Shown here piece by piece: positions 44,001-64,000 of a stretch of 64,000 nt of DNA. This DNA is from Myxococcota bacterium. Its GTDB lineage: Bacteria; Myxococcota_A; Polyangia; JAAYKL01. A program made the position numbers and the translations under genes. Below the pieces are notes generated by a model. It saw only the letters and a program-made list of their open reading frames with translations. It was not told where the DNA came from and ran no database searches. Positions within the stretch are counted from its first letter, which is position 1, and every line of letters begins with the position of its first letter. Where the stretch lies: NCBI GenBank assembly GCA_030065855.1, contig JASJCT010000022.1, positions 161,743 through 225,742 of the forward strand, read 5' to 3'.

Positions 44001-45692
44001 TACTTCTCTATAACTCAGTTTCCTTTGCTTTGTATAAACGGCGATTGAGTCAGGAGTCCTCTCAGCTTGTTTGGTGAAAAGTGAGTAGAGGCACTCTCTA
44101 TCTATTTTTTGTGTTTGACTATTTGATTCTCTAATCAGGTTCATCTGGTACTCTGGTAGAGTAGCTAGCGTGACTGTAGTCCAATCGTAGTCAGCGCCGG
44201 CAAGATCCGATAGGCACTTCCAGTAACAATCGAACATGTCATCCAGCATTCCCACTGGGAATATTTCTTCAACTGCATCCCAATTAAATACCAGTTCTCC
44301 GTCAATTTCCATGACCTGGTGATCGAGCCAAACTTGCGGTGTCTGACTCACACCGTATACCATTTCTCCAAACCCCTCAACGACACCGGCATCTCTTTTA
44401 TCATCAGCGCCAAATACGAGAGCACTTGTAAAAACGACTGGCATATTCGCTTTTGTGGAACTCCCTCGATGCTTGCTCCATTCGCGTAATACCTTAACGC
44501 CGCTCATTGAACGGTGGTCCAGATCTTGCCAAAGTTGTGCTTGGACGCGAGTTGCTCGATCAAGAAATCCGCCAGATGTAGGTTCGCCAATTTCAAGTAG
44601 TGTAAGAGATGTAAAATCACCAACTACTGAGTCGATCCCTTCGTGTAATGGAAGTCGATTAAAAAGTGTAACATTGAGTGTAAAATTAGCATTTGTGCTC
44701 CATTGAGTAAGAACTTCTGAGAAGACTGTTAGAAGAAAAACCGAAGGTGTAATACCCGCTGCTTTCGATTTTTGCTTGAGGATTTGCCAACTATCTCTGT
44801 CCAGTCTTCGTCGCCTTCTTATAAAATAGTACTTTTTATTTTTTGTTACTCTTTTGACTGGCAAGTCAGGTGGAGGAGGCAACGTTTCAATCCTATTCAT
44901 CCAATAATGAAAGGCTTTCTGATACATTTCGCTCTTTACTAGTTTCTGCTCTGTCAGTACATAATCCCGGTATGAAATATTAATCGGTGGAAGCTGCCGA
45001 TCAGGCTCGTTATACAAAGCCACCCACTCTCCAAAAAATATGAACATACTCCAAGCATCCATAATCAATAAATCAAGGCTAACATGAAGCCAGATTGATT
45101 CCTCTGGCCCAAGTGTGGCGCGAATCTCAAACAAAGGCCACTTGCTATCGGACAATACTTGATGCGACATTTCTGAGCGAGTTTTTAAAATAGCCAAATT
45201 TATTATGTTTTCGTTTTCCTTTCTTAAGTCCGAAATCGCTATTTCATAGTTTGGTACACTGGATAGTATTATTTGCTGTCCATTGGCATCGATTATAGCC
45301 CGCAACATCTCGTGACGCTGTATTACAGATTGTAAGCTTTTGTTTAGTCTATCTATATTGAGTCCCTTTGTATCCAGCTCAAAATAGAAATGGGTTGATA
45401 TGTTGCCCAGTTCATAACTACTTCCTCTCCCTGTCCAATAAGCGTGTTGAACATCTGTCAAGGGAAACGGTTCAAAGCGCCTATCATCATCGATTTCAAT
45501 TAGCGGTAGAGATCTTATTTCCTGCTCGTTCTTGCGGTTGTGTAGCAACTCAATCAGCTCGCCTTTGTGGTCTTTTAAAGATTTTTTTAGCTCTTCAGTC
45601 AAAGCGTTTGGAGGAGCCTTGATAACCAGCTTATCTCCATTTAGTCCAAGTACAACTTTACGCTCTGCTAACTTATTCAACAGGTGTTCCAT
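41043..45692 (-). CDS. NRPS: TubC-like docking, Cy, A (Cys-type code), PCP, thioester reductase
   Basis: FPLTDVQHAYWTGRG and DLLIMDAWS (Cy DxxxxDxxS); A core YVIFTSGSTGVPKGVMINH; pocket residues read by eye as D-L-Y-N-L-S-L-I-W; PCP GGDSV; C-terminal KILLTGASGFFGAYILRELM reductase. Confidence 0.93.
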   Translation of the reverse strand: MEHLLNKLAERKVVLGLNGDKLVIKAPPNALTEELKKSLKDHKGELIELLHNRKNEQEIRSLPLIEIDDDRRFEPFPLTDVQHAYWTGRGSSYELGNISTHFYFELDTKGLNIDRLNKSLQSVIQRHEMLRAIIDANGQQIILSSVPNYEIAISDLRKENENIINLAILKTRSEMSHQVLSDSKWPLFEIRATLGPEESIWLHVSLDLLIMDAWSMFIFFGEWVALYNEPDRQLPPINISYRDYVLTEQKLVKSEMYQKAFHYWMNRIETLPPPPDLPVKRVTKNKKYYFIRRRRRLDRDSWQILKQKSKAAGITPSVFLLTVFSEVLTQWSTNANFTLNVTLFNRLPLHEGIDSVVGDFTSLTLLEIGEPTSGGFLDRATRVQAQLWQDLDHRSMSGVKVLREWSKHRGSSTKANMPVVFTSALVFGADDKRDAGVVEGFGEMVYGVSQTPQVWLDHQVMEIDGELVFNWDAVEEIFPVGMLDDMFDCYWKCLSDLAGADYDWTTVTLATLPEYQMNLIRESNSQTQKIDRECLYSLFTKQAERTPDSIAVYTKQRKLSYREVLYLSKKVALEIKKWNVEKNSLVGIGMEKGWEQIVAAYGIMMAGAAFLPLEMSNPEARRWQLLNEGNVRLVITQKEKDMYRWPDHVDCIEVSYQEPSVLLDSFKENLNPLDLAYVIFTSGSTGVPKGVMINHENAVNTIVDMNLRFDVNSADRVFAISSLSFDLSIYDIFGLLAVGGSVVVPDPADLPNPEFWYKYLSEYKVTIWNSAPPLMQMLVNYLEGSKKSVSSDLRLSLLSGDWIPLELPDQVRKIWPNNKVISLGGATEGSIWSVIYPIESVESEWKSIPYGKALTNQKMYVLNENKNHCPIGVTGQIHIGGNGVAQGYLNNEEETQKHFFEHPLTKERLYATGDMGRLFDDGNIEFLGRRDKQVKINGHRIELGEIMNCLQQHQDVVEIVAIASGKPLRLSAFIVPNSVDLEKIDVDSIKIFVEDRLPKYMIPTNFVFLEKMPVTNNGKIDYRELEKILEEDSQEESYVVEPRNEQEAKMIEIWQSVVGFENIGIDDNFFEIGGDSVNATQVSKKVLEVFGVTLPLRYIFESPTVAELVERIQKIDDEQEENIDGSIIPAAAIFTALNKDSQQLVNDTKWNIESVRNLDTGQYAFCEQPSKILLTGASGFFGAYILRELMDQTHSDVFCLVRARSEEHARQRIIDNLEKYSLWENSYSSRIQPLAGDFGYQRLGLKEKQYDELCRSLDSIYHVAFTPVLNRNYEYLRDAHINSIYTLVEMAGSNKTKALFFVSSVAPNMRYFDGRFQIMGDETPSDDPTGMLNGYAQCKWVAEKLVLNAAKMGIPATVYRPTTLIGSSKDGATNISDMIYNLIELVLNVGQSPNWPGAVVDALPVDFASNFVVKSSLTVPLDGKVFNMIHPEPLPMTKFLNALITYFDKPDGLQTIEFEEWIELSRKYLEEKAPEVQRSLIEPFFIRTEYGRLIDHYFLEHQFELGSTQRLLAELNDSFPILDEKYCEKQFEYLQKNQHNFLGRKLASL

Positions 45693-45794
45693 AATAACTA
45701 TTCCTTTTCTAGATATCTTCGAATATTCGAATTGATGATTTTCTTTTTACAGAGTTCAGACTGGTACTACCCAGCTACTTTTCATAATGTAATC

Positions 45795-46935
45795 TCACCA
45801 TGAATACTCGCTCCTCAATGGGGGCATAGGGTTGCTGAAAAGGTCTCGATTATTCAGCATCGCACTGTAGTAAGAGAAGGCGTTGGAGGTTGCCTCGTTA
45901 GCTTTTCTGGAAGGCGATTTTTTTGCTCCCAACGCAGTGTATGAGTGTTTACGAATGCCATCGTCTTTAAGAGTGCATAGTGTCGCAATCCATTCCATGA
46001 GCGATCTTCGAAATGATCTAATTCGATTTCTTTTTTGTTGTTTGTGCGCTTACTCATTGCTCCAGCGCGCTATAAAGGCCTAAGCAGACGCCTTTCTTGG
46101 CTTGGGATATTTGCGTGGTCTTCCTTTGTCTTTGCGCATATCTAATCGAACATCGGCTGGATATAGGCCCTGCTTGGGCATGATGCCGATAGTCCGTCCA
46201 AGCTTGCGTTTTTTAAGCTATGGACGGAAATCAGAGCTTTTTCCATATTCACAATCGGCCAGAACATCACCGAACTTGGTACCAAATGCAATAACTGGAT
46301 CAATCTCCTCAAGGACAATACGCCACATCGGTCGATGCCGGATTTCTTGGGGAACACTAGCATTTTTCCAGCATTCACCATCTTCAATACACAACTTTGG
46401 CATATACAACTGTATACTGATAGTAATGTATACTGATAGTAACCGGAACTTTTTCGTGTGCCAATGTCAACGATACCAAGCTTAGGCAATTGCTCTTATT
46501 CCTAACTCACCACATTACTGATGAGAAACGCCGATTGAACACTTGCCTTTCTTAACTATTGCCATGTCATGGATAATGAGATTAGCATCCGGAATGCCTA
46601 CCAACTCATTCACTGCTCGTACCAACTTTTCTTTTAAGTGGACCTGGAATCCAACTCGTTGTCGATTCGAATTGATGTATCTATTGCAACTTTTGCGGCG
46701 TAATGATAGTAACAACACTCTCTATTTTTTTCGCCGACTAAGACCGAATAGTCCCCGAAAGTAAATCGGGGCCATTCATTACCTCTACTTTTGCCCGTAA
46801 CCTCTTTAAAAAAGGCTTCAGCAACTCATAAAAACGTTCCTCCCAGTCCTCAATATTTATAATCTTTGTGTTTGTCAAAACATCAGACTTGCACACTTGA
46901 TTCAATGGCGTCCAAAAAAGTGGTAGAGCAGTACT
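45795..46935 (-). pseudogene. Decayed IS701-like transposase
   Basis: Fragments in several frames on minus strand: EDWEERFYELLKPFLKRLRAKVE; HLKEKLVRAVNELVGIPDANLIIHDMAIVKKGKCSIGVSHQ; VLADCEYGKSSDFRP; DHFEDRSWNGLRHYALL. Confidence 0.8.
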
Positions 46936-48586
46936 AGTCAAAGTTTCTCATGTAATCAGCCATTTTTTCCCCCAACATCATACAAGTTAAGTTTATTGGT
47001 GCGCGAGGAAGTTTTGGAATAACTGAAGCATCCACAACAGATAAATTCCTCACTTCTCGAACGGTGCAATGCTGATCCACCACGGCTTTTTTATCACTAT
47101 CTTTTCCAATGCGAGCAGTTCCCGCTGGATGAAAAGATGTTGTTACAAATGTTTTTATAACACTGCTAATCAATGCATCAGAATTAATTATCTTTTCATT
47201 CCATATAAAAAGTCTATCGACAAATTTTTTGAAATGCTCTGAATGTAGTACGCTCCAAGCGACCCGTGCGCCTTGTACTAATCGTCTCGTGTCCTCTTGT
47301 TCGCTAAGGCAGTTTAAGTTTATTAAAGGTTGATTATGTGGATCGACGCTGCTAAAAGTAAGGCTACCGCTAGAACGCGGGCAACTCAAAATTGCCGATA
47401 TTGCAAACGCACGTTTCACACCCATCATACTGCTTAGAGGAAGCAAAGTTACATCCACATCGCTTAGCATGAACAATTGCATATCGTTTTCTATTTTTGA
47501 GCCATCTGATGTAAACCGAGCAAACATCTGATGATACGGTTGATTTCCTATACAGACACGAGGCCTTGGAATAGCCCATAGTACTATTGCTGGATGGTCC
47601 AATAGATTTTGCCCTACGCCGGGAACATCAGCCACTATCTCTATTCCCATCTTGTTGAGATCAACCGGATTTCCGATTCCCGAACGAAATAGAATCGATG
47701 GAGAGTGAACAGCTCCGCCACACAACGTGATCCGATTCGCAAACAAGCATTCAATTCTGCCGTTTCGAATGAATTCTACTCCAATTGCGCGTTTTCCCTG
47801 AAATAGAACACGGTTTACCAAACATCCGCCTCTAACAGTTAGATTCTTTCTATCTCGAAGCGGCAATAGATAACCAAGCGCTGACGAAACGCGGACGCCA
47901 TCTTTAGCGTTTAGCGGCACTGGACCTACACCAGTGGATACTGGGTCATTGTGATCGTTTGTAACTGGCCAGCAAAGTTCTTTACACGAATCAAAGAAAG
48001 CTTTTTGTAGCGGAATCAGTTCTTCGTTCTTTGGACGAGTTATCGTTATTGGTCCTTTACTTCCATGAAATTCGTTGTGGACATCTGTATCAGTTTCCAA
48101 CTTTTTAAAGTAAGGCAAAACATCAGACCATCCCCACCTTGTATGTCCACCATCACGCCATTCATCATAGTCTGCTGAAAGTCCCCTTATAGCTACAGCT
48201 CCGTTGATTGCTGACGAACCACCAATTACCTTACCCATAAAATATGGCATTTTTGCAAGTTCCGGACGGGTCTTCCCGGAACCAAGCATTTTGCTTTTTA
48301 CCATGCCGACACCATCTCTTATCGAGACGGATTTAATAGCTCGTGTGGCAGTCATTATTTTTTTTCCACCTGAGCTTTTTCCACTCGTAGAGGCAGTGTA
48401 CCCCCAATCAAAATTACTTAATGCAGGAGCTTTAGCATCAAGTAAATCATTGGGCATCTCTTGCATAGAATTATAGGCTGGTCCTGCTTCGAGTAGTATT
48501 ACATTTCTATTGCTATCCTCTGATAACCTTGCAGCAAGAACACTACCTGAAGATCCTCCGCCTACAATTAGTTCATCATATAACAT
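46934..48586 (-). CDS. GMC-family FAD oxidoreductase
   Basis: YDELIVGGGSSGSVLAARLSEDSNRNVILLEAGP; GGSSAINGAVAIRG; C-terminal TSFHPAGTARIGKDSDKKAVVDQHCTVREVRNLSVVDASVIPKLP. Confidence 0.93.
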   Translation of the reverse strand: MLYDELIVGGGSSGSVLAARLSEDSNRNVILLEAGPAYNSMQEMPNDLLDAKAPALSNFDWGYTASTSGKSSGGKKIMTATRAIKSVSIRDGVGMVKSKMLGSGKTRPELAKMPYFMGKVIGGSSAINGAVAIRGLSADYDEWRDGGHTRWGWSDVLPYFKKLETDTDVHNEFHGSKGPITITRPKNEELIPLQKAFFDSCKELCWPVTNDHNDPVSTGVGPVPLNAKDGVRVSSALGYLLPLRDRKNLTVRGGCLVNRVLFQGKRAIGVEFIRNGRIECLFANRITLCGGAVHSPSILFRSGIGNPVDLNKMGIEIVADVPGVGQNLLDHPAIVLWAIPRPRVCIGNQPYHQMFARFTSDGSKIENDMQLFMLSDVDVTLLPLSSMMGVKRAFAISAILSCPRSSGSLTFSSVDPHNQPLINLNCLSEQEDTRRLVQGARVAWSVLHSEHFKKFVDRLFIWNEKIINSDALISSVIKTFVTTSFHPAGTARIGKDSDKKAVVDQHCTVREVRNLSVVDASVIPKLPRAPINLTCMMLGEKMADYMRNFD

Positions 48587-48587
48587 T

Positions 48588-51500
48588 CTATTCCCCAGTG
48601 CTTCGCCCCTCATCTTTTTCGCCTATTCGTTCCATTATTTTATCAGCGATGAATCGCATATTTTTCTGACTAAGAACTGTGTAATGTGAACCTTGAACAC
48701 TATAATTTATGACCTTCCCTCTAGTGAATGAACTCCAGCCCCAATCAGGGTCTTCTAGAGCCGGATGCTGCATAAACTCGCTCACACGTCCATCCAACGC
48801 CTTTATAACAAGTATATCAGAATCTATTTGCCCAGCCATGTACTTCCGAGTCGCCAGAACTACAGCCTTAAACACCTCAAACACAGGGCTGAGCGCAGTG
48901 CTGGTTAAACCTGATTTTAAACCACCTATCTCGTCAATTAAGTAAGATAACTGTTTGGCGGGACCTACGCGCTCAAGTTCTTCAATAGTAAATCTATCTA
49001 TAGGGATTTCTTCATTCAGATCTTCTAAGAACCAAAGAGCCAAGCGTCCATTGGATACTTCACCGTGAAGTAGTGGGGCTGGGCTATCCAATTGGATAAC
49101 ACATTTTACATTTCTTCCTATGTCTTCCATTCTCCTAGCGATCTCAAAAGCAATTATGCCTCCCGAAGACCAACCCCCAAGTATGCATGGCTCAACTTGA
49201 TGCTTTTCCATGATTGCCTTTAGATAGATATCTGCCATACGTTCGATACTAGTGATTGGCTTCTGTTTCCCATCTAGGCCTATAGCCTGCAGGCCATAGA
49301 ATGGATGCCTCAGATATCCAGCCAGTTCCCGGTAACACAACACATTGCCGCCCGCGGGATGAACAAAAAAGATCGGTGTTCCCCTTACATTCGTTCTTAT
49401 TTTAACTAATGGAGATATTTTCTTAGGGTTCTCTTCACAATCATTTTTTAATTTATCAGCTAAACTTTCGATAGTTCGCCCTTCGAGGATAGTAGCGAGA
49501 TTCAACATCTTTCCAAACTCTTGATCTATCTTTGCCAACATTCTCACAGCAGTAAAAGATTGTCCACCGAGCCCAAAGAAATCATCTCTGACACCAATTG
49601 GATGAATGTCTAATAAATCCTCCCAGATTTTTACCAAGCTTTCTTCTGTAGAGTTTCTAGGTGCAATCTGCATTTTTGCTTCGACATGGATGTGATTTTT
49701 GGCTACAGAATAGCTTAGCAATGATTTGCGATCAATTTTCCCGTTCGCTGTTATCGGAAGTTCTTTCAGAGAGATGATAACCGGCGGCACCATGTAAGGC
49801 GGTAATTTCTTCTTAAGGAAAGTGCGGTAAATTTCTTCATTATTAATATCTTCAACATAGTTTTGAGGGACAACATATGCTACCAACCTTTTTCCGGGGC
49901 CATTTTCGCCCTCTGCCAATACTACGACTTCCTTCACATTTTCATGAAGTAATAAATTGGCTTCTATTTCTCCCAGTTCTACACGAAACCCTTGAATCTT
50001 AACCTGAAAATCCTTGCGCCCAAGAAACTCAATATTCCCATCCGGCAAGTATCGTCCCATATCACCAGTTTTGTACAAGCGAATATTTGTTTTGGGATCG
50101 ATAATAAAAGATTCTTCTGTTTTTCTGGGGTTATCCCAATAACCTCGCGCTAGGCCAACTCCCGAAATATAAAGTGAACCAGGCACCCAGTCCGGGCATT
50201 CCGAGTGGTTATCGGACAGCACTTTCCATCCCTGATTGCTCAGAGGCTTTCCGTAGGGAATACTCTGCCATTCCGCTTGAATCGCATTTATTTTATAAAA
50301 AATCGACCAGATAGATGCTTCTGTGGCTCCACCCAAACTAATAACCTCTGCGTTTGGTGAAACTTTCTTTATTCTCTCCGGTAGATTTAACGGTATCCAA
50401 TCGCCACTCAACAACACAAGTCTCAGATCTGGAAGAATTGTTGAGGTCGCTTCCTGTTCATCAACCATAAGCTGCATCAAAGCCGGTACAGAATTCCAAA
50501 TAGTGACTCGGTTTTCTTTCATTATGCTCAACCAGCGCCCCGGAGCATGCGACTCTGTCTCATCCGGAAGAACCAGCGTGGCACCCGCGGCTAAGGCACC
50601 AAAAACGTCGTAAACAGATAAGTCAAAGCTGTAAGAGCTTATCCCAAAAACTTTGTCATCTGACCCAACGTTAAATCGTTGATTAATATCTAGAATAGTA
50701 TTCAGAGCACTTTTGTGTTCTATCATTACTCCTTTTGGTTTACCCGTAGAACCTGATGTATAGATAACATAAGCAAGTGCTCTCTCAAAGGATCTCGAAG
50801 TTGTTTCACTTCGTGAGAACTTCTTTGTATCGAAATTTTCTTGGCATAGGATTTTGATATCTTTAGGCCAGAGCTTTGAGCGAAGGAACTCTTTTTCAGT
50901 AATAGCAATTTTCGCCTGCGTATTATAGAGAAGATAAGAAAGCCGTTCATCCGGTAAGTCCGTATCGATCGGCACATATGCGGCTCCCGATTCAAGGATA
51001 GCTACCATAGCAACAATCTGATTCACTCCCTTTTTATAAATCACTGGTATGAGTTGATCTTGCTGTGTGCATATTTTACTCAGAGCGTAGCCGATCGCAT
51101 TAGCTTTTTGATATAGTTCTGCGAATGATATTTTTTCTTTCGGTGTGCTTACAGCAATTCTCTCACCATATTCGAAAGCTGATTGTCTAATCGGTTCGTG
51201 AAGACCCATATTGCTTGCTGGCTTGGTTGTTTCGTTTACCTCTATCCTTTTTATTTCCTGCTGTACCGGCAAAGATATCAGTTGCGATTCATACCAATAT
51301 TCATCATCATCCGCAAGGTTTCGAAGGAGGCCATTGTACTTCTCCAACATATGGTCGATTAAATTTTCCGGATAATACTCTTCAAGAACGTCCCAAACAA
51401 TGTACAAACCACCGTCTTCGAGCTCCCAATATTGGTGGTCTAACAAAGTTTGGGGAGTCTCGAGCCAACGATACCCTTCCTTAGTCACTGGGGCCATAAA

Positions 51501-52784
51501 CAATCCACTACCATTTACGTAAGGACATGGTGCCTTACCAGGGTAACCGTGAAGTCGGTTATATTCTTGCATCACTTTCATTCCAGGCCAATATAAATGT
51601 TTCATATCTGCAACTAATTGGTCTTTTAGTCTTTGAGCTCTTTCGATAAAGCTTCTGCTATCTCTATGGTCTATTTCAAGCGGGTACAGAGATGCGAAGT
51701 TTCCAATTACTTGTTTGATATGTGGATGCAATGGAAACCTGTGAGTCACCATGTTATTGATTATAAAATGAACACTATTGCTCCAGTAAGCCAGGATCTC
51801 TACATACACTGCTGTTATAGCTGCAGTGGGAGTTAACCCGAGTTTCACTGCGTTGGCCTTGAAGGATTTCCAAATATCCGCGTTGTGCACCGAAACTCTT
51901 CTATTCATTTTTGATCTTTTACAACGCTCATCGTTTTTTATATTTGGTACAGCAGGTGGCGAAGGCAATTTTGGAATCCGATCCATCCAATATTTTTTTG
52001 AGCGTTCGCCTAATTCACCTCTTTCAAGGTATTCCAAGGCTAGAACACAGTCTCTGAAAGTAATTTCTATTTTTGGCAATTGCCTATTTGGATCTTGATA
52101 TAGCAGATCAACAGTCGCGAGTAATTTCTGGGTTCCGGGACCGTCGCTAAAAAAATTGTTATTATTGAAGTGAACTCTAGCTATATCCTGATTTATCATG
52201 GAAATTTCTAATCCAAACCACGGCCACTTGTCTAACGGAAGCTCCTCTCGTTTTATTCTCTCTCTAATCTCCAATAATCGTTCCTCTACAACCTTCCTAG
52301 GCAATTCTCTCAAGTCGTGTACAGTAAAATTCATCGGAGGAATATTATCTAGCGGCTTCAAATTAGCTTCTTTAGTAACTACTGAAATGCTTCCAAGATG
52401 CCTTAATAAAGCTTTATGCCAAGCTACTTCGTATCTCTCTACATCCAGACGTTTATATGTAAGTTCCATATAGTAATGGGGCCTAACGTGGTATTCCATA
52501 AAACTGCTATCTCCAACTAGGAAACCAGTTTGCAAATCAGAAAGTGGATAAGTAGAATACATTTCCTCTCTATTGGCCTCTATTTGATGTAACAGCGCTA
52601 GAGTATCCGATTCATTGTCGTGTATCGAAAGCCGGTCTAACAATTCCCGTTTGTGCTCTTTCAGGGCCCTGTGCAATTCCTTGGTCAATACGCCCTTAGG
52701 AGCAGCCACAGATAAACGACCATTGTCCATCTTCAGCTTGGCACCTACATTCTTTAGTTGTGTCAACAAATTTTGGATGTTCAT
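48588..52784 (-). CDS. NRPS: TubC-like docking, atypical C/Cy, A (Cys-type code), PCP, thioesterase
   Basis: N-terminus NLLTQLKNVGAKLKMDNGRLSVAAPKGVLTKELHRALKEHKRELL; A core YVIYTSGSTGKPKGVMIEH with pocket D-L-Y-N-L-S-L-I-W; PCP LGGQSF; TE FVHPAGGNVLCYREL and GGWSSGG. Confidence 0.93.
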   Translation of the reverse strand: MNIQNLLTQLKNVGAKLKMDNGRLSVAAPKGVLTKELHRALKEHKRELLDRLSIHDNESDTLALLHQIEANREEMYSTYPLSDLQTGFLVGDSSFMEYHVRPHYYMELTYKRLDVERYEVAWHKALLRHLGSISVVTKEANLKPLDNIPPMNFTVHDLRELPRKVVEERLLEIRERIKREELPLDKWPWFGLEISMINQDIARVHFNNNNFFSDGPGTQKLLATVDLLYQDPNRQLPKIEITFRDCVLALEYLERGELGERSKKYWMDRIPKLPSPPAVPNIKNDERCKRSKMNRRVSVHNADIWKSFKANAVKLGLTPTAAITAVYVEILAYWSNSVHFIINNMVTHRFPLHPHIKQVIGNFASLYPLEIDHRDSRSFIERAQRLKDQLVADMKHLYWPGMKVMQEYNRLHGYPGKAPCPYVNGSGLFMAPVTKEGYRWLETPQTLLDHQYWELEDGGLYIVWDVLEEYYPENLIDHMLEKYNGLLRNLADDDEYWYESQLISLPVQQEIKRIEVNETTKPASNMGLHEPIRQSAFEYGERIAVSTPKEKISFAELYQKANAIGYALSKICTQQDQLIPVIYKKGVNQIVAMVAILESGAAYVPIDTDLPDERLSYLLYNTQAKIAITEKEFLRSKLWPKDIKILCQENFDTKKFSRSETTSRSFERALAYVIYTSGSTGKPKGVMIEHKSALNTILDINQRFNVGSDDKVFGISSYSFDLSVYDVFGALAAGATLVLPDETESHAPGRWLSIMKENRVTIWNSVPALMQLMVDEQEATSTILPDLRLVLLSGDWIPLNLPERIKKVSPNAEVISLGGATEASIWSIFYKINAIQAEWQSIPYGKPLSNQGWKVLSDNHSECPDWVPGSLYISGVGLARGYWDNPRKTEESFIIDPKTNIRLYKTGDMGRYLPDGNIEFLGRKDFQVKIQGFRVELGEIEANLLLHENVKEVVVLAEGENGPGKRLVAYVVPQNYVEDINNEEIYRTFLKKKLPPYMVPPVIISLKELPITANGKIDRKSLLSYSVAKNHIHVEAKMQIAPRNSTEESLVKIWEDLLDIHPIGVRDDFFGLGGQSFTAVRMLAKIDQEFGKMLNLATILEGRTIESLADKLKNDCEENPKKISPLVKIRTNVRGTPIFFVHPAGGNVLCYRELAGYLRHPFYGLQAIGLDGKQKPITSIERMADIYLKAIMEKHQVEPCILGGWSSGGIIAFEIARRMEDIGRNVKCVIQLDSPAPLLHGEVSNGRLALWFLEDLNEEIPIDRFTIEELERVGPAKQLSYLIDEIGGLKSGLTSTALSPVFEVFKAVVLATRKYMAGQIDSDILVIKALDGRVSEFMQHPALEDPDWGWSSFTRGKVINYSVQGSHYTVLSQKNMRFIADKIMERIGEKDEGRSTGE

Positions 52785-55700
52785 AGCGTTATAACTTCCA
52801 GTTCTTCTTCATTTGGATTATTGGATTCTGAATCGTCCATGATAGCGGCAATTCTAATTTTATCGAGAAAATGACTCGCAATCTCTTCAATTGATAAACC
52901 TTTGACAAAATAATCAAGGGGCAAATCTATGCCCAATTCTTTTAATATTTGTCTTTTCAATTCCATCGCCATTAGTGAGTCAAAGCCATACTCATTTATC
53001 GATTTGCTCGAATTAACAAATGTTAGCTTTTCATATCCGAGAATTCTACCTGCCTTTTCAATTAAGTACTCTTTCAGAACGTTTTTCGCTTCGTCATTTG
53101 TAATATTATCTATTTTATCAAGTATGTTATTTACAATCGAAAAATCCTCAGTTCCGCCTTTTTCTTCTGAATGCTTAGAAGCAAGTTCAGAAAATACACT
53201 TGGAGAATTCAGTATCCATAGGGAATCTGAGAACATACTCCAATCAAAAGTAAATACTCCAACCTGAGTCGGAGAGTTCAGAATTATTCGATCGAGCGCT
53301 TCTGAACCAAGTTCAACTGAAATATCTCGCAAACCGCTTTCTTTTCTCATCTTGAAACTTTGTCTGTTGGCAGCCATGCCAACACCTAACCAAGCTCCCC
53401 AGTTCACACTTGTTGCAGTTAGTCCTAGGGCTTTTCTAAAATGGGCGAACCCATCCAGCCAAGCGTTCGCTGCGGCGTAGTTTCCCTGTCCTGGTGAACC
53501 TATTAAAGAAGCCAAAGAAGAAAACATTACAAAGAAATCTAACGATAGGTTCTTGGTTGCTTCATGTAAGCAATAGGCACCCAACAGTTTTGGAGCTAAA
53601 ACTGTTTTCATTTGGTCAGTCGAAAGTCTTGTCAAAACGCCATCATCGAGAACACCAGCTGCGTGAATTACTCCTTTAATTGGCGGCATAGAACATCTTG
53701 CTTCACTAATAATGCTGTTAACCTCTCGTTGCGAAGTAATGTCTCCTTTTCTAACAGCTAGCTGTATACCTTTTTCTCTTAGTATTTTTACCCGTTCCTG
53801 AACTTTCTCATTTGGATTGGATCTTCCTATTAGTATGAGGTTGCGAGCTCCATTCGCTGCAAGTCTTTCAGCAACCAGAGCTCCCAAGCCACCTACTCCA
53901 CCACTTATCAGATAAGACGCATCTTTAATTACACCCGTATCATTTTTATCGATTAAATCTAGCTCTACACTGTTAGTCAATCGACCAACATAACGGCCTC
54001 GACCTTTTTCTCTTAGAAGTACTTGGCCTTCATTCGAATCATGGTCAAGCTCTTCATAAAGCATAATTGCATCTGTCTGTTTGAGGATATCAATCATTCT
54101 CACATTTAATTCTGGATGTTCGACTGAAATAGTTCGCCCTAGACCCCAAAGACTTGCATGTACGGGCAAAGGAAAACTTTTCTCAAGCTGAAAGGCAACC
54201 GCCGAGTTCGTGACTATTGACAATTGAATCTTGCTTTCGATGGATCTTGCAGTCAATTCCTTGACTAAAAACAGCACATCACTGCAAATGCTCAAAGTCG
54301 CAGCGAATGCACTTTCTCCATTTTCCACCTCAGAATGTTCAATATCCAGACCCCAAAGATAGACTATTTTTCTAATTGCTGCAGTCGAGTCGAGTTCTGT
54401 ATCAATAGTAGACTTTATAGTACCGGACCAGAAGCTTCTATTTTTAGATTTTCTAGAAACACTGTTTATTTCTTCTTTATCTTTGTAAAATAGATGGACC
54501 TTTTCATCTTTGTCCTTAATTATTTTTGACAGATCACTTCCTACACCTTTTTTGTCAGCGAAAATCAACCAGGAGGTAGCCTTTCTATCCCTTTTTTCTT
54601 TTTGTTTCTTTCTATTGTTACCCCCTGAAACTATTTTAGATTCAATCCATTTTAATAAATGGAAAGCATCGTTATTAGTAACTGTTCGTTTTTTAGCAAG
54701 AAAATCCTTTGATAATTTCCGAAGTTTTAGATCATCTATGCTGGCAAATATCTCTCCGAATTCATCGTATATTGCTATATTAGCAACAATAACAGCAGGG
54801 TCGTAGTCACCATCTTCTAAGGCTTTATCATTGGGAGCGATCCGGCAATGTGCCCAGAAATTGGTTTCTTCAAATCGACGATACTGTTGATATCGGCCCA
54901 TAGACATGGGTACATAGAGGCCGATGTTTTTTTGCCTCTGAATGGACGCCGCTAACGTCTGAAAGCAACTGTCCACTATTGTTGTGTAACTTTCAAAATT
55001 ACTCGGGTTTTCAATCTTCTTAAGAGAAATGCAACTTACCGACTCATCGTGCCCACTCCATATTCGTTTAATCATTCGAAAATTTGGTCCATAATTAAAA
55101 CCGATTTTATGTAGTTCTGCATAGAATTTCTTTACTGACATCTCCTGCGACATATTTTCAATTATTTGCTCGATACTCACTCTGTCAGAGTTCCCCGCTT
55201 CTTCATAAGGTATCGCAAAAGCAGACACGTGCAATTGCCAGGAGCTCTTATTCTCAATGTTGTTCGTGTTGTTACTGTAAAGGGAAACGACACGTTTTTT
55301 ATTTCCCTCATTCGAATATACGATCTGTAATCTATAATTCGAGTTATCGTTAAAAAGCAAAGGTTGTTCAATCGCAATATTATCGAAACACAACTTACTT
55401 GAATCGAACACTGAGATTGAAGATTCGCTCAATAGATACAAAAATCCCGCGGCCGGCATCAAAACATTGCCTGATATTGCATGATTTTTTAAAAAATTCA
55501 GGTCGTTCTGATCTGGTTGTAGTTCGTATCTTTCCTTTTCAGATTCAGCCATTAGGGACAGACAGTTCTTCATATGGCAAGTCAGGCCTCTAAAATCTGT
55601 TGTTCTTACGGGCTGAGAAGTTGTAGCGGCCTGATCAAACCAGTACTTAAGTCTCTGGAACCTATATCTTGGCAAGCAGACTTCAGGTTGCTTAAGTTGC

Positions 55701-58700
55701 GTAAAAATCTTTCTCAAGTCAACTGAGACCCCACGAACATAGAGTTTGCCAAGGCCTTCGTACATCTGTAATACAGCTGATGTGGCTTTTCTCATACTTG
55801 GGATGCTTTCAAAAGTACCCAGTATCGGCCGTGCCATCTCTAGGAGAATCGGTTGAGGACCAACTTCAACATAGATCTCACACCCACTTTTTTTGAGCGT
55901 TTTGATGCCGCGGTAATACATTACAGGCTTCCTCACGTGATCCACCCAATAGTCGACAGTGGCAATTTCATCTCCGGCTATCTGTCCGTGCACATTAGAT
56001 ATTAGTTTGACCTTTGGAGCTCTAAGTTTATATTTTTGAATGAAATCGCCAAATTCATTCATTATTGGTTCCATCAAATGCGAATGAAACGCGTGAGATA
56101 CGGTCAGCTTTTTGGTATTGTAACCGCTTGATTCTAATTCCCACGCCAAATCCTTAACCCCCAACTCTTCTCCCGATAATACAAGACTCGATTCCCCATT
56201 AATGGCTGCAATATCAACAGTTTTCGACCGCCTGCCAATAGTTTTTTCTACGACTTCCAATGGCGCTGTGACCGCGTACATCACTCCCCTGGAAGGAAGA
56301 TCGCTCATTAATTCGGCTCGTTTGGCAATAATCTTTATACCGGTTTCAACATCAAAAACTCCTGCTATGCATGCTGCTGAATACTCCCCCACACTATGTC
56401 CTAGCAAAATATCGGGTTCTACCCCCCAGCTTTTCCAGAGGGTTGATAGCGCAACTTCCAATGCGAACAACGCAGGTTGCGTATATAATGTGTTATCAAG
56501 GTCAGAATCTCCTTTACTCCTTTGCTTCAATACAGTCAGTATGCTCTTGGGAAGCTCATTGGCCAAGGTATTATCACAAATGTCTATGATATCTCTAAAA
56601 ATCGGCTGAGTTTTATATAGCTCCATTCCCATTTCTGCATATTGAGAACCCTGCCCGGTAAATATAAAAGCGATCTGTGGGTTATCATTTTCTGTGACAC
56701 TTCCCCAAACAGCTCTTCTTGACTCACCACCTCTCCCGAATCTGCTTAGTTCATCGATTAGCTGAAGTTTACTTTTCACAGGGACAGCCAAGCGTTCCTG
56801 TAAATGATTTTTGCCTAACACGGCGGAATGACAAATCTCTTGTGTGGATATTTTTTCGTCAGTACTCTGAATAAACGACGCGCAGACATCAGCGTTCTGT
56901 CTCAGTGCTTCTTGACTATGGGCGGAAAGAACAAAAAGAGCACCTTCCCCTCTATCCCTATTACTGATGCCGTCACTCTCGACTGACGAATCTTTTGAGT
57001 AATCCTGCAAAACGATATGAGCATTGGTTCCGCCGAAACCAAAAGAACTAATCCCGGCCGATAGCGGTTCCCCGTTCCCATTCCATTCTTTTAAATCAGT
57101 CGGTATTTCCATAGTTGAATGATCCAGATTTATAAATGGATTCAATTTTGTAAGATGTAGACTTGGGACAAGCTTTTTGTTTTGCATACATAGAACAACC
57201 TTGATTAGAGCAGCTATACCGGCTGCAGCCTCTAAGTGACCAAGATTTGTTTTTACTGATCCCAGGTAACAGGGGGAATGGCGATCATTGTTTTCGTCAA
57301 CAATATCTTTTAACGCATTAACTTCAATTGGATCACCTAACTTTGTACCTGTGCCGTGTGTCTCAAAATAACTAATTTGATCCGAAGTTACTCCGGCGTT
57401 GCTCAAAGCTCTGCGTATAACTGCCTTTTGAGATTCGCCATTTGGTGCAGTCAAACCATTGCTGTGACCATCCTGGTTGACGGCCGAGCCTCTAATGATG
57501 GCCAGAATTTTGCTCTTACGTTTCAATGCATCACTGACACGTTGAAGAACAATCATGCCGCAGCCTTCACTGCGCACATAGCCGTCAGCCCTTTCATCAA
57601 ATGTTTTGCAACGTCCATCCGGTGCCATCATTTTGGCTTGAGACAAAGCTATCGTTATGTCAGGTGATAGTATTAGATTCACTCCGCCCGCCAAGGCGAT
57701 GTCACTTTCACCTGACTCCAGGCTTCTGCAAGCGTTGTGAACTGCAACGAGGGATGATGAGCACGCAGAGTCCACGGCCCAACTTGGGCCGCAAAAATCG
57801 AACACATACGAAAGTCTATTTGCAGCAATGCTCAGAGCATTGCCTGTGCCAAAGTATTCATTTAGCGCGCTGTCTTGTCTAGACTGCACTCTATCGTAGT
57901 CACTTGTGCAAATCCCAACAAAAACACCGGTTTGAGTTCCTCGTAATGTCGAGTGCGGGATATGTGCGTGCTCCAAAGCCTCCCATGTGACTTCCAACAA
58001 TAGACGTTGTTGAGGATCCATGTTTGACGCTTCCTTGGGAGAAATACCGAATACCTCTGCATCAAAAAGATCGACTTCTTTCAAAAATCCACCGAAACGT
58101 GTGTTCATTTTCCCAGGCGTACCGGCCTGTTTGTTATAATATTTTTCTATTTTCCAACGTTCCGGAGGTACCTCTGTAATCGCATCTTTTCCATTGCTTA
58201 AAAAATTCCAGTATTCATCTGGATTACTAACGTTTCCAGGAAAACGACACCCAATTCCAACTACGGCTATTCCTTCTTCAGCCAAGGTCATTTCACTCTT
58301 TTGGCTTCGGATTATCGAGCTACTACTTGCGAGATACGATGAAAGCGCAGCAATATTTGGGTAATCATATACTATTGTCGGATCCAACGAGCGATTCAGC
58401 CACTTTTCCAGCTCGCTTGATAGCTCAGCTGCAGCGACTGAATCAATACCGTAGTGAGCAAAAGAATCCTTGACATCAATTCTATTAAGCTTCAATTTTG
58501 ATTTTTTTGAAATCTGTTTCAGTAAGAATTTTTCTATTTCATTCCTTGTATAATTAAGCGTTGTATTTAAGACTGTAACTTTTTCTCTTTCCTGGGTTAT
58601 GTCAGGATTTCGGTATTCTTTTTTGTTTTCGAGATATCTCGCTATCTCCCGAAGCTCCATTTTCAAATAACGATTTTTACACTCCCTGCGTCGCACCTTC

Positions 58701-60403
58701 CCGCTTGTAGTTTTGGGAAGTGCTGCTGTCTTTAATAGAACGATATCGAAAACCTTGAAGCCGTGTGCGGATGCAACCGCGTTGCTTATGTCACGGAATA
58801 CTTCGCTCGTATTTATTTTTCGTATCTGACTGCGTTTGACCTCCTGGACAACTACTGGCTTTTCTACGCCGTCGCGTTCGATGCTAAATGCAGCACTTCC
58901 GCCACGCTGAAGCGCATGATGTGCTTTTTCTACTGTGGCCTCAATATCCTGTGGATAAAAATTTACACCATGGATAATTATCATATCTTTTAGACGGCCT
59001 GTAACAAAGAGCTGGTCCGAATAAACAAACCCCATGTCTCCGGTACGTAAAAATGATTTGTCTTTTCCATTTAGAATGGATGCTTGGAACGTCTCCTTGG
59101 TCTCCTTTTTCTTGTTCCAGTAGCCGTGCGCGATATGTTTGCCCGCTACCCATATTTCCCCTATTTCGCTCTCTGCGCATAGCTCAAACGATACGGGATC
59201 GACAATCGCGACATTCTCTTCGATTAACATCGGACCGCAGCCTACTAAGGGTTGACCCAATTCTTTATTTTCTTCTGGAATTGCTTCTCCCAGCTTAAGA
59301 GCCTCTGTGTTGAAATATCGTATTAGGGGCTCATCCGGCATTCGACAAATAGAAATCCCCAAAGTCGCTTCGGCCATACCGTAACTCGGCGCGAATGCAG
59401 TTCTTTTGAAACCACACGTTTTGAATTCTTCAGAAAAGCGATCTATAGTGTCTGCTCGAACCGGCTCTGCGCCATTGTAAGCAAATATCCAACTACTTAA
59501 ATCTATTGTTGTTTTTTGTTGTTCATCAATTTTTTCTAGACATAACTCGTATCCAAAATTGGGGCCACCGCATGCGACTGCTCTATATTTTGAGATTGCC
59601 CACAATAGACAAAATGGCTTTTGAAGAAATACTACTGGTGGAATCATGACTGTCGTTGAACCGTTGTAGATAGAATGAGTAATCCCAAATACCAACCCCA
59701 TGTCATGATAGAGCGGCATCCACAATATCTGGGTTGAGCCTTCAGGGAGTTTAATACGGTTTCCTATCATTTCGTTGTTCATCATCAAGTTACGATGAGT
59801 AATTACAGCTCCTTTGGGAAGACCGGTTGAGCCAGATGTGTACTGAAGATACGCCGCATCGTTATCATTAAAAGCCGGCTTCAAAAAACTAAATGGAACC
59901 GACTCGAGAGAATCTATATCAGGTACAACAAAAATTTCCGGGCGTGAGCTTTCTTCGAATTCACGCTCTATCCACGCACTTACTTTTTTCAAATATGCCT
60001 GGGTTGTAAGGATTACCCTTGGCTGAGCATCGATTATTATATTCTTCAATCGACTTGTGTGTTGATTCTGTTTGTTGAGCTGCGGAGGATAAGCCGGTAT
60101 TGCGACGGTTCCTGCGTACAAGCACCCAAAAAAGGAGATTACATATTCAATCCCGCTAGGACACGCAATGAGCACTCTGTCTCGTTCTTCAACACGCGTT
60201 CGAATTTGAGCCGCGAGAATACGCGATTTCAAATCCAGTTGACCGTAATTAAGTTTACCTGCTTCAATCTCACCGTCTTGCAAAAACACAACCGCTGTCC
60301 TATCTGGATGTATTTCCGCTCTCTGACTCATTAAATCGATAATGTTCGAAAAACTAGTACGAAATTTGACATTTGTATCCATATTCATTTTGCTTAATCT
60401 CAC
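52781..60403 (-). CDS. FAAL-ACP-KS-AT-DH-KR-ACP polyketide synthase
   Basis: FAAL (GTVAIPAYPP, LQYTSGSTGLPKGAVITHRN); ACP GIDS; KS VDSACSSSLVAVHNAC; AT GHSVGEY and HAFHS; DH NHAISGNVLMP and DSCFQ; KR GGVGGLG, HAAGVLDDG, GNYAAANAWLDG; ACP GFDS. Confidence 0.95.
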   Translation of the reverse strand: MRLSKMNMDTNVKFRTSFSNIIDLMSQRAEIHPDRTAVVFLQDGEIEAGKLNYGQLDLKSRILAAQIRTRVEERDRVLIACPSGIEYVISFFGCLYAGTVAIPAYPPQLNKQNQHTSRLKNIIIDAQPRVILTTQAYLKKVSAWIEREFEESSRPEIFVVPDIDSLESVPFSFLKPAFNDNDAAYLQYTSGSTGLPKGAVITHRNLMMNNEMIGNRIKLPEGSTQILWMPLYHDMGLVFGITHSIYNGSTTVMIPPVVFLQKPFCLLWAISKYRAVACGGPNFGYELCLEKIDEQQKTTIDLSSWIFAYNGAEPVRADTIDRFSEEFKTCGFKRTAFAPSYGMAEATLGISICRMPDEPLIRYFNTEALKLGEAIPEENKELGQPLVGCGPMLIEENVAIVDPVSFELCAESEIGEIWVAGKHIAHGYWNKKKETKETFQASILNGKDKSFLRTGDMGFVYSDQLFVTGRLKDMIIIHGVNFYPQDIEATVEKAHHALQRGGSAAFSIERDGVEKPVVVQEVKRSQIRKINTSEVFRDISNAVASAHGFKVFDIVLLKTAALPKTTSGKVRRRECKNRYLKMELREIARYLENKKEYRNPDITQEREKVTVLNTTLNYTRNEIEKFLLKQISKKSKLKLNRIDVKDSFAHYGIDSVAAAELSSELEKWLNRSLDPTIVYDYPNIAALSSYLASSSSIIRSQKSEMTLAEEGIAVVGIGCRFPGNVSNPDEYWNFLSNGKDAITEVPPERWKIEKYYNKQAGTPGKMNTRFGGFLKEVDLFDAEVFGISPKEASNMDPQQRLLLEVTWEALEHAHIPHSTLRGTQTGVFVGICTSDYDRVQSRQDSALNEYFGTGNALSIAANRLSYVFDFCGPSWAVDSACSSSLVAVHNACRSLESGESDIALAGGVNLILSPDITIALSQAKMMAPDGRCKTFDERADGYVRSEGCGMIVLQRVSDALKRKSKILAIIRGSAVNQDGHSNGLTAPNGESQKAVIRRALSNAGVTSDQISYFETHGTGTKLGDPIEVNALKDIVDENNDRHSPCYLGSVKTNLGHLEAAAGIAALIKVVLCMQNKKLVPSLHLTKLNPFINLDHSTMEIPTDLKEWNGNGEPLSAGISSFGFGGTNAHIVLQDYSKDSSVESDGISNRDRGEGALFVLSAHSQEALRQNADVCASFIQSTDEKISTQEICHSAVLGKNHLQERLAVPVKSKLQLIDELSRFGRGGESRRAVWGSVTENDNPQIAFIFTGQGSQYAEMGMELYKTQPIFRDIIDICDNTLANELPKSILTVLKQRSKGDSDLDNTLYTQPALFALEVALSTLWKSWGVEPDILLGHSVGEYSAACIAGVFDVETGIKIIAKRAELMSDLPSRGVMYAVTAPLEVVEKTIGRRSKTVDIAAINGESSLVLSGEELGVKDLAWELESSGYNTKKLTVSHAFHSHLMEPIMNEFGDFIQKYKLRAPKVKLISNVHGQIAGDEIATVDYWVDHVRKPVMYYRGIKTLKKSGCEIYVEVGPQPILLEMARPILGTFESIPSMRKATSAVLQMYEGLGKLYVRGVSVDLRKIFTQLKQPEVCLPRYRFQRLKYWFDQAATTSQPVRTTDFRGLTCHMKNCLSLMAESEKERYELQPDQNDLNFLKNHAISGNVLMPAAGFLYLLSESSISVFDSSKLCFDNIAIEQPLLFNDNSNYRLQIVYSNEGNKKRVVSLYSNNTNNIENKSSWQLHVSAFAIPYEEAGNSDRVSIEQIIENMSQEMSVKKFYAELHKIGFNYGPNFRMIKRIWSGHDESVSCISLKKIENPSNFESYTTIVDSCFQTLAASIQRQKNIGLYVPMSMGRYQQYRRFEETNFWAHCRIAPNDKALEDGDYDPAVIVANIAIYDEFGEIFASIDDLKLRKLSKDFLAKKRTVTNNDAFHLLKWIESKIVSGGNNRKKQKEKRDRKATSWLIFADKKGVGSDLSKIIKDKDEKVHLFYKDKEEINSVSRKSKNRSFWSGTIKSTIDTELDSTAAIRKIVYLWGLDIEHSEVENGESAFAATLSICSDVLFLVKELTARSIESKIQLSIVTNSAVAFQLEKSFPLPVHASLWGLGRTISVEHPELNVRMIDILKQTDAIMLYEELDHDSNEGQVLLREKGRGRYVGRLTNSVELDLIDKNDTGVIKDASYLISGGVGGLGALVAERLAANGARNLILIGRSNPNEKVQERVKILREKGIQLAVRKGDITSQREVNSIISEARCSMPPIKGVIHAAGVLDDGVLTRLSTDQMKTVLAPKLLGAYCLHEATKNLSLDFFVMFSSLASLIGSPGQGNYAAANAWLDGFAHFRKALGLTATSVNWGAWLGVGMAANRQSFKMRKESGLRDISVELGSEALDRIILNSPTQVGVFTFDWSMFSDSLWILNSPSVFSELASKHSEEKGGTEDFSIVNNILDKIDNITNDEAKNVLKEYLIEKAGRILGYEKLTFVNSSKSINEYGFDSLMAMELKRQILKELGIDLPLDYFVKGLSIEEIASHFLDKIRIAAIMDDSESNNPNEEELEVITL

Positions 60404-60584
60404 TGGGCTGGATGTTTGTTACCCTATTTCTTCTTCCACAATCGTATTAACGACAGAAAGATACTGCCATTTATGCTTTTCTAGTATTTTGAAATTATTA
60501 TACTAATTTATTATGTTATCTACCTCTAAAACCCCAAAGATCCTTGCTAGCTTATAGCTCTACTGGCTATCAATGCTTATCAAG

Positions 60585-60720
60585 TGCGTAATCCGGTGAA
60601 GCCGATTGCTGAATCCGGACGATGCCGATCGCTTGTTCCGGAATTCGTGATCGTTTTCACCGGATTCGGTGATCGACTTCATTCGGAATCGTTGATCGAT
60701 TTTGACCGGAATACGCATCA
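60585..60720. repeat. Degenerate TCCGGA/GATCG repeat cluster, probable IS21-type terminal remnant
   Basis: atccggtgaagccgattgctga/atccggacgatgccgatcgcttg/ttccggaattcgtgatcgttttcacc/ggattcggtgatcgacttca/ttcggaatcgttgatcgattttgacc/ggaatacgc. Confidence 0.55.
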
Positions 60721-61111
60721 AGCCAAATCGCTTCTCTGTTATTTTTGCTACTTTTCAGTCAAGATAGAACAGTTCCACCTAGGTTATCAACAGAAAAATC
60801 GAAGTCCTATCGGCACTCGCTTATCGTGCATCTCTATAAGGGGGGCTTATAGCCGCTAGACAGCCAAACTCCCACTGTTACTAGCTCAGCTCCCCTCTGT
60901 GTAGCGTTGTCTCTTAAACTCCTGTTTAAGGAACATACAATTCAAGATCTGTACGATAATCTCGCGAAATGAACTAAAGAGCTGGCCACCAATGGGAGAG
61001 CAATCTTGCCTGCTCTTTTGTCTTTTGTTTAAGTCCTAAGTAAAGGTGATCGTTCTACGTTCTAATTTGTAAATATTATAAACAGACAAGTCTCGTTGGA
61101 TGCACAGTTCT

Positions 61112-62020
61112 CTACATTAGCGATGTTGAAAAATAGCGTTCAGCACGATCCGGCAGAATCGTCACGACTTTTGATTTGGGGCCTAAAAAAGCGGCCTCCT
61201 TCATTGCAGCGTAGACATTCGCCCCGGATGAAGTGCCGACTAAAAGGCCCTCTTGACGCATGAGCCTACGTGTGACTTCAAGCGCTTCTTCGTCTGTAAC
61301 TTCCACAACATGGTTGAGAATTGTCGTATCCAAAACTGTGGGCACAAAACCATCACCGATACCTTGTATCTGATGAAGACCTGGTTCATGCCCCAACAGC
61401 GCTGAAACGTTTTTCGGCTCTACCGCAACAATGCGGATATTCGGGCGCTTTTCTTTTAGATAGCGACCCACACCTGCAAGGGTTCCCCCAGATCCGACTC
61501 CCATAACAAAAGAATCTAGCTCTCCATTCACTTGTTCCAGTATTTCTGGGCCAGTGAAAAGATAATGCGTTTCTGGGTTATGTGGGTTTTCGAACTGTTG
61601 CGGGATCCACGCGTCTTGAATTTCTTCTTTCAACGACCATAGTTTTTTAAGGGCACCTTCCAAAGAATCTTCCGCAGGAGTGAGGATACACTCACCACCA
61701 AACGCAGAAATGATTTTTTTACGCTCAGTGCTCATATTTTCTGGCATGACCAGCTTGACCTGGTAGCCTTTTTGACAACCAACAAAGGATAGACCTATTC
61801 CGGTATTGCCAGAAGTCGCCTCGATAATGGTTCCACTTGGTTTAAGAAGACCACTAGCTTCAGCTTTTTCAATCATATACTTGGCTATCCGATCTTTAAT
61901 GGAGCCACCGGGATTCAGCATTTCAGCCTTCGCAAAAATATTCCCATTACCTAGCGTTCGAATATTAATCAGAGGAGTTCTGCCAATGTTTTCAAGTATA
62001 AAGCTTCTATCTGTCGACAT
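61112..62020 (-). CDS. cysK: Cysteine synthase (O-acetylserine sulfhydrylase)
   Basis: NIGRTPLINI, KAEMLNPGGSIKDRIAKYMIEKAE, EATSGNTGIGLSFVG, GVGSGGTLAGVGRYLKE, LHQIQGIGDGFVP, GTSSGANVYAA. Confidence 0.93.
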   Translation of the reverse strand: MSTDRSFILENIGRTPLINIRTLGNGNIFAKAEMLNPGGSIKDRIAKYMIEKAEASGLLKPSGTIIEATSGNTGIGLSFVGCQKGYQVKLVMPENMSTERKKIISAFGGECILTPAEDSLEGALKKLWSLKEEIQDAWIPQQFENPHNPETHYLFTGPEILEQVNGELDSFVMGVGSGGTLAGVGRYLKEKRPNIRIVAVEPKNVSALLGHEPGLHQIQGIGDGFVPTVLDTTILNHVVEVTDEEALEVTRRLMRQEGLLVGTSSGANVYAAMKEAAFLGPKSKVVTILPDRAERYFSTSLM

Positions 62021-62169: not shown

Positions 62170-62742
62170 TTACCTGCTAGCTACGGATGAATCAAGCCTT
62201 TGTAGATCCGTTTCGGCGCTTAGAACTACGGAAACGCCTACTCCAAGCATATCTACCCACACCGTTAGCTTCCTAGCTTTTCCTATGTGTATTATTGTCC
62301 CGGATACACCTGTCAGTGATCCGGATAAAATCTTAACTGTTTCACCAAGCTTAAAATCTGTCTCAATTGTCAGTGCAGTACCGTTATTTGTAAGACTCCA
62401 TACGTCTCTTATCTGATGATCTAATAATTCCTCCTCCAACTTCGTCGTTGCTCTTATAACCTGCAATACGCATCCCGACTCTTTGAGCGACTGTTTACTA
62501 CAGATCCCTTTAACAAAAATATATCCCGGGAAAAGAGGATTCGAGGTGGTACGGGATTTTCTTCCGCTACACGTGGTTCTATATATAGTTGGCATGTAAT
62601 ATTTTATCCGCTGGGCATGCATGATTCGAGCCGCCTTCTTCTCCCATCTGGGACGTACTCGAACGCAGCTCCATGAAGAGACAAGTGATTCTCCTTCGCT
62701 ACAAAACAGATCCGGAGGGTATATGTACTGTTCTTGAACCAT
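62170..62742 (-). CDS. NusG-family transcription antiterminator paralog
   Basis: SWSCVRVRPRWEKKAARIMHAQRIKYYMPTI...NPLFPGYIFVKG; KOW-like FKLGETVKILSGSLTGVSGTIIHIGK. Confidence 0.88.
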   Translation of the reverse strand: MVQEQYIYPPDLFCSEGESLVSSWSCVRVRPRWEKKAARIMHAQRIKYYMPTIYRTTCSGRKSRTTSNPLFPGYIFVKGICSKQSLKESGCVLQVIRATTKLEEELLDHQIRDVWSLTNNGTALTIETDFKLGETVKILSGSLTGVSGTIIHIGKARKLTVWVDMLGVGVSVVLSAETDLQRLDSSVASR

Positions 62743-63012
62743 TAATTACACTACTGCAAAGCTAAACAGAATCTGTCTACTTTGCGACTCCTTAAAAAAA
62801 TGCATCTGTGAAGACGAGCATGTACGTTCTACCGTCATCACACTGAACCTGAATGCCAACACTACTTGAGTGCTATCAATCTTTTTTCGAGCTTCTCTTC
62901 AAATTCTAACCCCTTACAAAAGATATAATTTTCACAGTAAATATCTCATAGGCTACTTACGTATTGAGAGTCAACCCTTTTTTTATTTTTTTTGATAGAA
63001 AAGCTACTTGTA

Positions 63013-63895
63013 CCTAAAAGTTTCGAAAACTACGCCCTAAGACTGCGTTTTTCCCGTTCCCGCAGCGTCCTGATCTTCTGAATTCTCGATTTGAATTGAT
63101 CCCAGTCTTAGATGCGAGCGCATGATTCCGGAAGTCGCAGGCCAGATTCGTTGACCGTATGCCCGGGTACGTAGATGTACGGGAACCGCAAACTCTGCGA
63201 GGTTCTCGTCGCGAAGAGTCGTGTGACTTTTTTCGTGGCATCGCGACGCCTTGTACCGCATATCACCTCGGTCGCAAATCCGACCATAGGGCGTGGGCAA
63301 GAAGGGAAAGCTGCTGCCATACACCGTTGGCACTGTACTTCCGAGACAGCAATACGTCGAATAAGAAACCACTCTTCAATTCGCCGATGTCTTTCTCTTG
63401 ACCGCCCCGCCCGGCATAGAAAGTATGCATTTCTTCCATCGGCATTTCTCCGTGCTCGAAGTTGAGGCAAAACAGCATGTACCGATATTCCTGGTCGTTC
63501 GGCTGGAACAGTTCGAGCTGCTATCCTTTGTGCTTGGCTATCTCCTTGTTGCTTAGGCGAAAACGATAGGCCACAAAATCCCTAGCCTCTGACCAGCTCT
63601 TCATCTCCCAACTTAACTCGAAGGCGTCTACTCCATCTAGAATCTCGATCCAGCCCTTGCGATTCTTCACGTTGAGAGCAAGGTCTTCGTATATTTTCGC
63701 AACCATCACATACTTGAAACTCTCTGACTCGTACATTCTTAGCAACTTGTCGTCGAAAAATGCAGAGTCTTGGCGCACACGGATCCGAACTCCAGGAATC
63801 TCTGACTTCAATCGGCGGATGACTTTATGCATAAAATTGACCACTGCATCGATGTCCGAAACGTTTTCGGGCCTGTTTAGTACTGCTAGGAATTA
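63013..63895 (-). pseudogene. Truncated, frameshifted IS1380-like transposase
   Basis: Minus-strand AVLNRPENVSDIDAVVNFMHKVI...VRIRVRQDSAFFDDKLLRMYE, then FYAGRGGQEKDIGELKSGFLFDVLLSRKYSANGVWQQLSLLAHAL; N-terminal half absent. Confidence 0.75.
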
Positions 63896-63924: not shown

Positions 63925-64000
63925 CTTGGGGCATTGCCGGTGGAATCGGGGGCTTGGTCGTCGGCCTGGTCGAGGTACTGGTGCTCGTCCTGTTTGCCTC
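63925..64000 (+). repeat. Direct repeat copy 2: 5'-truncated copy of the sulfatase gene start, runs off window
   Basis: Exact match to 27917-27992; the first 16 nt of the gene including ATG are absent. Confidence 0.97.

Follow-up and report, generated by a model that had tools for sequence, protein, structure and literature searches.

A cluster-linked NusG paralog at the head of a probably cysteine-using PKS/NRPS gene run in an uncultured Polyangia-related bacterium

Specialised paralogs of NusG that are tied to long operons form an established class (PMC7819879, PMC7593976). The best studied of those serving antibiotic clusters is LoaP, which is stated to occur in Bacillota, Actinomycetota and Spirochaetota (PMC12691694). 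The mechanism of TaA, from the antibiotic TA cluster of Myxococcus xanthus, is unknown (PMC7819879). The gene described here, from an uncultured bacterium related to Polyangia, encodes a cluster-linked specialised NusG that lies outside the curated limits of LoaP, RfaH and UpxY, the kind itself being already known.

The gene lies at 62170-62742 on the minus strand of the window, the whole stretch of 64,000 nucleotides that was analysed. The source genome comprises 7.08 Mb in 228 contigs and is 96% complete and 5.4% contaminated by its own record. The original prediction of a NusG-family open reading frame at this position was exact: the ORF begins with ATG, has an in-frame TAA directly upstream, and encodes a protein of 190 amino acids that matches PF02357 (Pfam NusG) at 34.5 bits against a cut-off of 22.2. 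This protein consists of an N-terminal extension (P-x-D-L-F), an NGN domain and a KOW domain signature (VWVDMLGVG), and the core residues of NGN and KOW are kept in the alignment. The AlphaFold model (pLDDT 79.5) contains the NGN domain and a KOW domain of beta strands, the C-terminal domain being of low to moderate confidence. The top solved structures retrieved with this model by Foldseek were NusG and RfaH. The NGN domain, which clears the Pfam cut-off, and a KOW-like C-terminal barrel in the predicted structure together place the protein in the NusG superfamily.

Three NusG-family genes are present in the genome. The housekeeping copy (C129) has secE upstream and rplK and rplA downstream, and scores 209.6 bits to the NusG equivalog. 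A second copy (C80) adjoins a fused sugar-nucleotide/KdsC-type gene in an envelope-sugar locus, passes the UpxY cut-off (110.3 against 100) and belongs to a clade common to the bacterium's own family. The third is the cluster paralog, for which assignment to housekeeping NusG (TIGR00922) was rejected at 41.9 against 135.7 bits, the secE-nusG-rplK context belonging to C129. The paralog is not the sole housekeeping nusG of the genome, and the claim that it is specialised stood; as an extra copy adjoining a long candidate target operon, it qualifies as a specialised NusG (NusG-SP). Among 280 genomes sampled from the phylum that have a PF02357 match, the other counts listed were one or two, none being three.

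The paralog resembles LoaP, known from the dfn and mln operons of Bacillus velezensis (NF033641), in being a specialised NusG with NGN and KOW domains linked to a long PKS operon. It differs in its phylum, in the lack of a UNCG hairpin or leader terminator, and in its score to the LoaP model, which at 47.1 bits is far below the cut-off of 125, so that LoaP membership was rejected. The resemblance to TaA is one of setting, both being NusG-like genes tied to a PKS/NRPS cluster, in hosts probably of the same broad bacterial group; a search of related classes for Myxococcus TaA returned no such sequence. UpxY, which serves capsule operons in Bacteroides (NF033644), is the best-scoring curated family and likewise adjoins its probable target operon; the window paralog also has relatives at envelope-sugar loci. 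Membership was nonetheless rejected, as the score of 74.6 bits is below the cut-off of 100, and the paralog is tied to NRPS/PKS rather than polysaccharide genes. RfaH of E. coli is similarly a paralog for long acquired operons, and the leader of the window gene contains an ops-like octamer, GACGGTAG. Against this, RfaH membership (TIGR01955) was rejected at 41.4 against 144.5 bits, the two fall in separate clades, and the window paralog has a KOW domain predicted as beta strands and is encoded beside its probable target. In RfaH, the residues H65-T66-T67 read ops. These residues are not conserved in the alignment with the paralog.

Downstream of nusG, the order originally described (cysK, the 7.6-kb PKS and the NRPS genes, all on the same strand) was recovered. 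The proposed operon of about 22 kb held in part: there is a 21.7-kb co-directional run on the minus strand, headed by nusG and continuing with cysK, the PKS, two NRPS genes and a GMC oxidoreductase, but as an operon this run is only a candidate, overlaps being limited to PKS-NRPS1-GMC (4 and 26 bp). The non-coding gaps measure 149 bp between nusG and cysK (assuming the ATG of cysK), 708 bp between cysK and the PKS (60404-61111) and 1241 bp between the GMC and NRPS2 genes (45693-46933). The cysK gene (61112-62020; ATG start, with TTG at 62065 as an alternative) encodes a cysteine synthase A that scores 375.7 against an equivalog cut-off of 350.95. It is an accessory copy, one of three matches in the genome; the housekeeping match, which is stronger, and one further copy lie elsewhere. 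The PKS (52781-60403) has the domain order FAAL-ACP-KS-AT-DH-KR-ACP. NRPS1 (48588-52784) comprises a TubC_N docking domain, a C/Cy domain with a degenerate motif, an A domain with a cysteine-like code, PCP and TE, and is followed by the GMC oxidoreductase (46934-48613). NRPS2 (41043-45692) comprises TubC_N docking, a Cy domain with the heterocyclisation motif DLLIMDAWS, an A domain with a cysteine-like code, PCP and a terminal reductase.

Aligned with a GrsA reference fragment, the adenylation core of NRPS1 gives D-L-Y-S/N-L-S-L-I-W (S with a gapped alignment, N with an ungapped one), and NRPS2 is almost the same at the code positions. This we take to be a cysteine code. Judged from sequence, both adenylation domains look cysteine-specific, and the cysteine synthase of the cluster may supply the two cysteine-activating modules, giving a self-supplying, cysteine-using cluster. 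The product would probably carry thiazoline-type rings on an acyl-polyketide chain. Further on, two methyltransferases, a thioesterase and a PPTase are encoded on the plus strand (31620-34478 and 40342-40911) and an MMPL/DUF1302/LolA-like export set on the minus strand (34569-39312). The exporter genes are split from NRPS2 by two plus-strand ORFs (39873-40911). One of these two ORFs is a methyltransferase, and a similar methyltransferase lies at 32471-33091. A scan against Rfam returned a tRNA at 10389-10472 as its sole match.

The composition of the region is that of an island. GC content is 0.50-0.61 over the first 30 kb and drops to mostly 0.38-0.46 at about 31-63 kb. The GC3 of the paralog (0.40) is close to that of the cluster genes (0.33-0.42), whereas GC3 is 0.61 and 0.59 in the two other nusG genes and 0.62-0.66 in the flanking genes. 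It is probable that the paralog entered the genome along with the cysteine-using PKS/NRPS island. At the upstream island edge, directly upstream of nusG, lies a decayed DDE transposase of IS1380 type (PF13701) in pieces (63260-63844, minus strand). Window position 64000 (contig position 225742) is the end of the contig, whose final 76 bases (63925-64000) are identical to 27917-27992, inside the start of a sulfatase-like gene (27901-30948). This identity suggests an assembly-graph overlap, so the join at the contig end may be artificial, and no sequence is known upstream of 64000.

All large non-coding gaps contain IS or MITE debris. The cysK-PKS gap holds a 133-bp MITE-like element (60585-60717) with inverted ends TGCGTA(T/A)TCCGG and internal repeats that are presumably of IS21 type. 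Pieces of one end of this element occur at four other sites in the genome, and the DNA seen there shows no obvious adjoining transposase gene. A decayed DDE_5/IS701-like transposase (45950-46700, minus strand) takes up much of the GMC-NRPS2 gap, an untranslated 1.24 kb before the last NRPS gene. Because the run is interrupted by such debris, a single transcript is not to be assumed; the gaps could hold separate promoters, or the IS debris may have broken up what was once a single operon. For the same reason, readthrough would be useful here.

The leader of nusG (62743-63010, minus strand) has a possible promoter, TTGACT-18-TATGAG, at 62945-62974, which is a consensus match by eye only. A weak hairpin (62807-62842; z -0.9) contains the ops-like octamer at 62829-62836. 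This octamer has one mismatch to the ops core, and no other GRCGGTAG occurs in the window, the pattern having been chosen after it was seen. A Shine-Dalgarno-like AAGGAG (62788-62793) is separated from the start codon by a stable hairpin at 62756-62785 (-13.5 kcal/mol; z -3.5 against its own shuffles). This hairpin was rejected as a recruiter, since 46 sites of similar stability occur in the cluster, and 1.9% of 43-nt windows fold equally well. As a whole, the leader folds no better than its shuffles (z 0.07) and contains no Rfam element; its sole UNCG, located in the spacer of the possible promoter, has a 1-bp stem and forms no LoaP-type hairpin. Repeats common to the leader and the other gaps were short, chance-like pairs only. 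The search that had been proposed for recruiting hairpins and terminators in the leader gave no recruiting element above background.

Sense-strand terminator hairpins were likewise absent from the leader, the 708-bp gap and the 1241-bp gap. Intrinsic terminators were rejected as the obstacle to elongation, as they show no sense-strand excess (8 sense against 11 antisense). Promoter-like sites, scored by an automatic scan, were not in excess either (31 against 37.4 in shuffles). The genome encodes Rho. Sense RNA is richer in G than in C (C/G 0.74-0.81 in genes), making it a poor Rho substrate, so general loading of Rho is unlikely. One of the few sense stretches with C over G lies within the 1241-bp untranslated IS remnant between biosynthetic genes, and it is here that polarity would be expected and that a NusG-SP would help.

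The best match to the paralog among 144 relatives is G076, from another family of the same class with a GC content of 69%. With the N-terminal extension included, about 178 residues align at 40% identity (E 6e-42); the next match has 33% (E 7e-15). The G076 locus is matched by a lake MAG record (JAIOQA010000197.1). Its nusG also stands first. Next come a type II thioesterase-like ORF, whose ATG and the nusG stop share 4 bases (ATGA), and then NRPS genes up to the contig end. The predicted link to biosynthetic clusters accordingly holds in a second genome. No PKS or cysK was present within the stretch seen, and its adenylation domains share only about 30% identity with their counterparts in the window cluster; the shared NusG is therefore not explained by one inherited cluster, and the gene is first in two unrelated NRPS-type clusters.

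The window paralog and G076 form a clade with support of 100/99, apart from housekeeping NusG, from RfaH and from the UpxY-like paralogs of the bacterium's family, in a tree that took in no TaA and no known LoaP sequences. The distant neighbours of the pair are L133, from a planctomycete plasmid, and L042, and relatives outside the pair include the envelope-sugar loci L133 and L134. A single change on the tree is enough for the label of NRPS/PKS neighbour. The clade signature is [VL]W[VI]DMLGVG plus the P-x-D-L-F extension. Two distant relatives (L133:15983-16582 and L171:1991-2581) have an N-terminal extension of D-L-F/W type, so the extension is probably older than the NRPS link. A third clade member was not found in the class (318 genomes), the phylum sample (379), the order of G076 or a genome contig collection, the last giving no match in a single-protein scan. 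Viral contigs gave no match to the two-protein alignment, and plasmids yielded distant relatives only. NRPS/PKS homologs were absent from the flanks of the other NusG-like loci examined, an absence that is weak as some contigs are short; the flank of L125 had a single weak match, to an AMP-ligase only.

A spare NusG copy that stands first before a cluster, and whose closest relative stands first before a different cluster, is probably a dedicated long-operon factor. The explanation we favour, and consider reasonably probable, is that the paralog was acquired with the cysteine-using PKS/NRPS island and is dedicated to this cluster as a positive elongation factor of the antitermination type for the operon it heads. 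The paralog would be the first protein to be made from the transcript. Its NGN domain would then replace housekeeping NusG on RNA polymerase as the polymerase passes the leader, the protein in effect loading itself there. It would remain bound over some 20 kb of AT-rich sequence and, at the non-coding gaps littered with IS debris, could reduce both pausing and Rho-dependent polarity, with a positive effect on the cluster. Counting against readthrough is that the NRPS link rests on two members only. More tentatively, and with the odds somewhat against it, the pair may represent a lineage of its own within the NusG paralogs, distinct from LoaP, RfaH and UpxY. Such a lineage would have been captured from loci for envelope sugars, would now be dedicated to the NRPS/PKS operons of Polyangia-type bacteria, and would have a recruiting signal of its own and be portable between unrelated clusters.

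It is also conceivable, if rather unlikely, that the paralog controls only its own leader and cysK through attenuation or translation, in the manner of UpxY, with separate promoters, in the 708-bp and 1241-bp gaps, driving the PKS and NRPS genes. Those gaps are large and hold mobile debris and promoter-like consensus matches, AAGGAG is cut off from the ATG by the stable hairpin, and UpxY, the nearest curated model despite a score below its cut-off, acts in leaders upstream of upxY (PMC7819879). The promoter-like sites are, however, no more frequent than in shuffles, neither gap has a sense terminator hairpin, and the nusG of G076 is coupled in translation to its NRPS operon, no gap lying between them. 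That the gene is a passenger, an envelope-type (UpxY-like) paralog brought by the horizontally acquired island and either doing nothing specific for the cluster or acting elsewhere, seems improbable. The envelope-sugar relatives, the island composition and the IS remnants at the island edges would fit such an origin, yet the nusG ORF is intact whereas the adjoining mobile genes have decayed, the NGN/KOW core residues are conserved, and a gene of the same clade stands first in another, different NRPS operon. A true LoaP, which would bind a leader RNA hairpin and bypass intrinsic terminators by antagonising NusA, is very improbable given the low model score, the 1-bp stem of the only leader UNCG and the lack of a sense-strand leader terminator, even though the setting of a NusG paralog adjoining a PKS/NRPS operon is the same (PMC12691694).

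If the preferred reading of a cluster-dedicated elongation factor is true, one more lineage has evolved antiterminators dedicated to natural-product operons. Heterologous expression of silent clusters from uncultured relatives would then require that the nusG paralog be supplied as well. The clade signature, together with the N-terminal extension, provides a handle for finding more such clusters.
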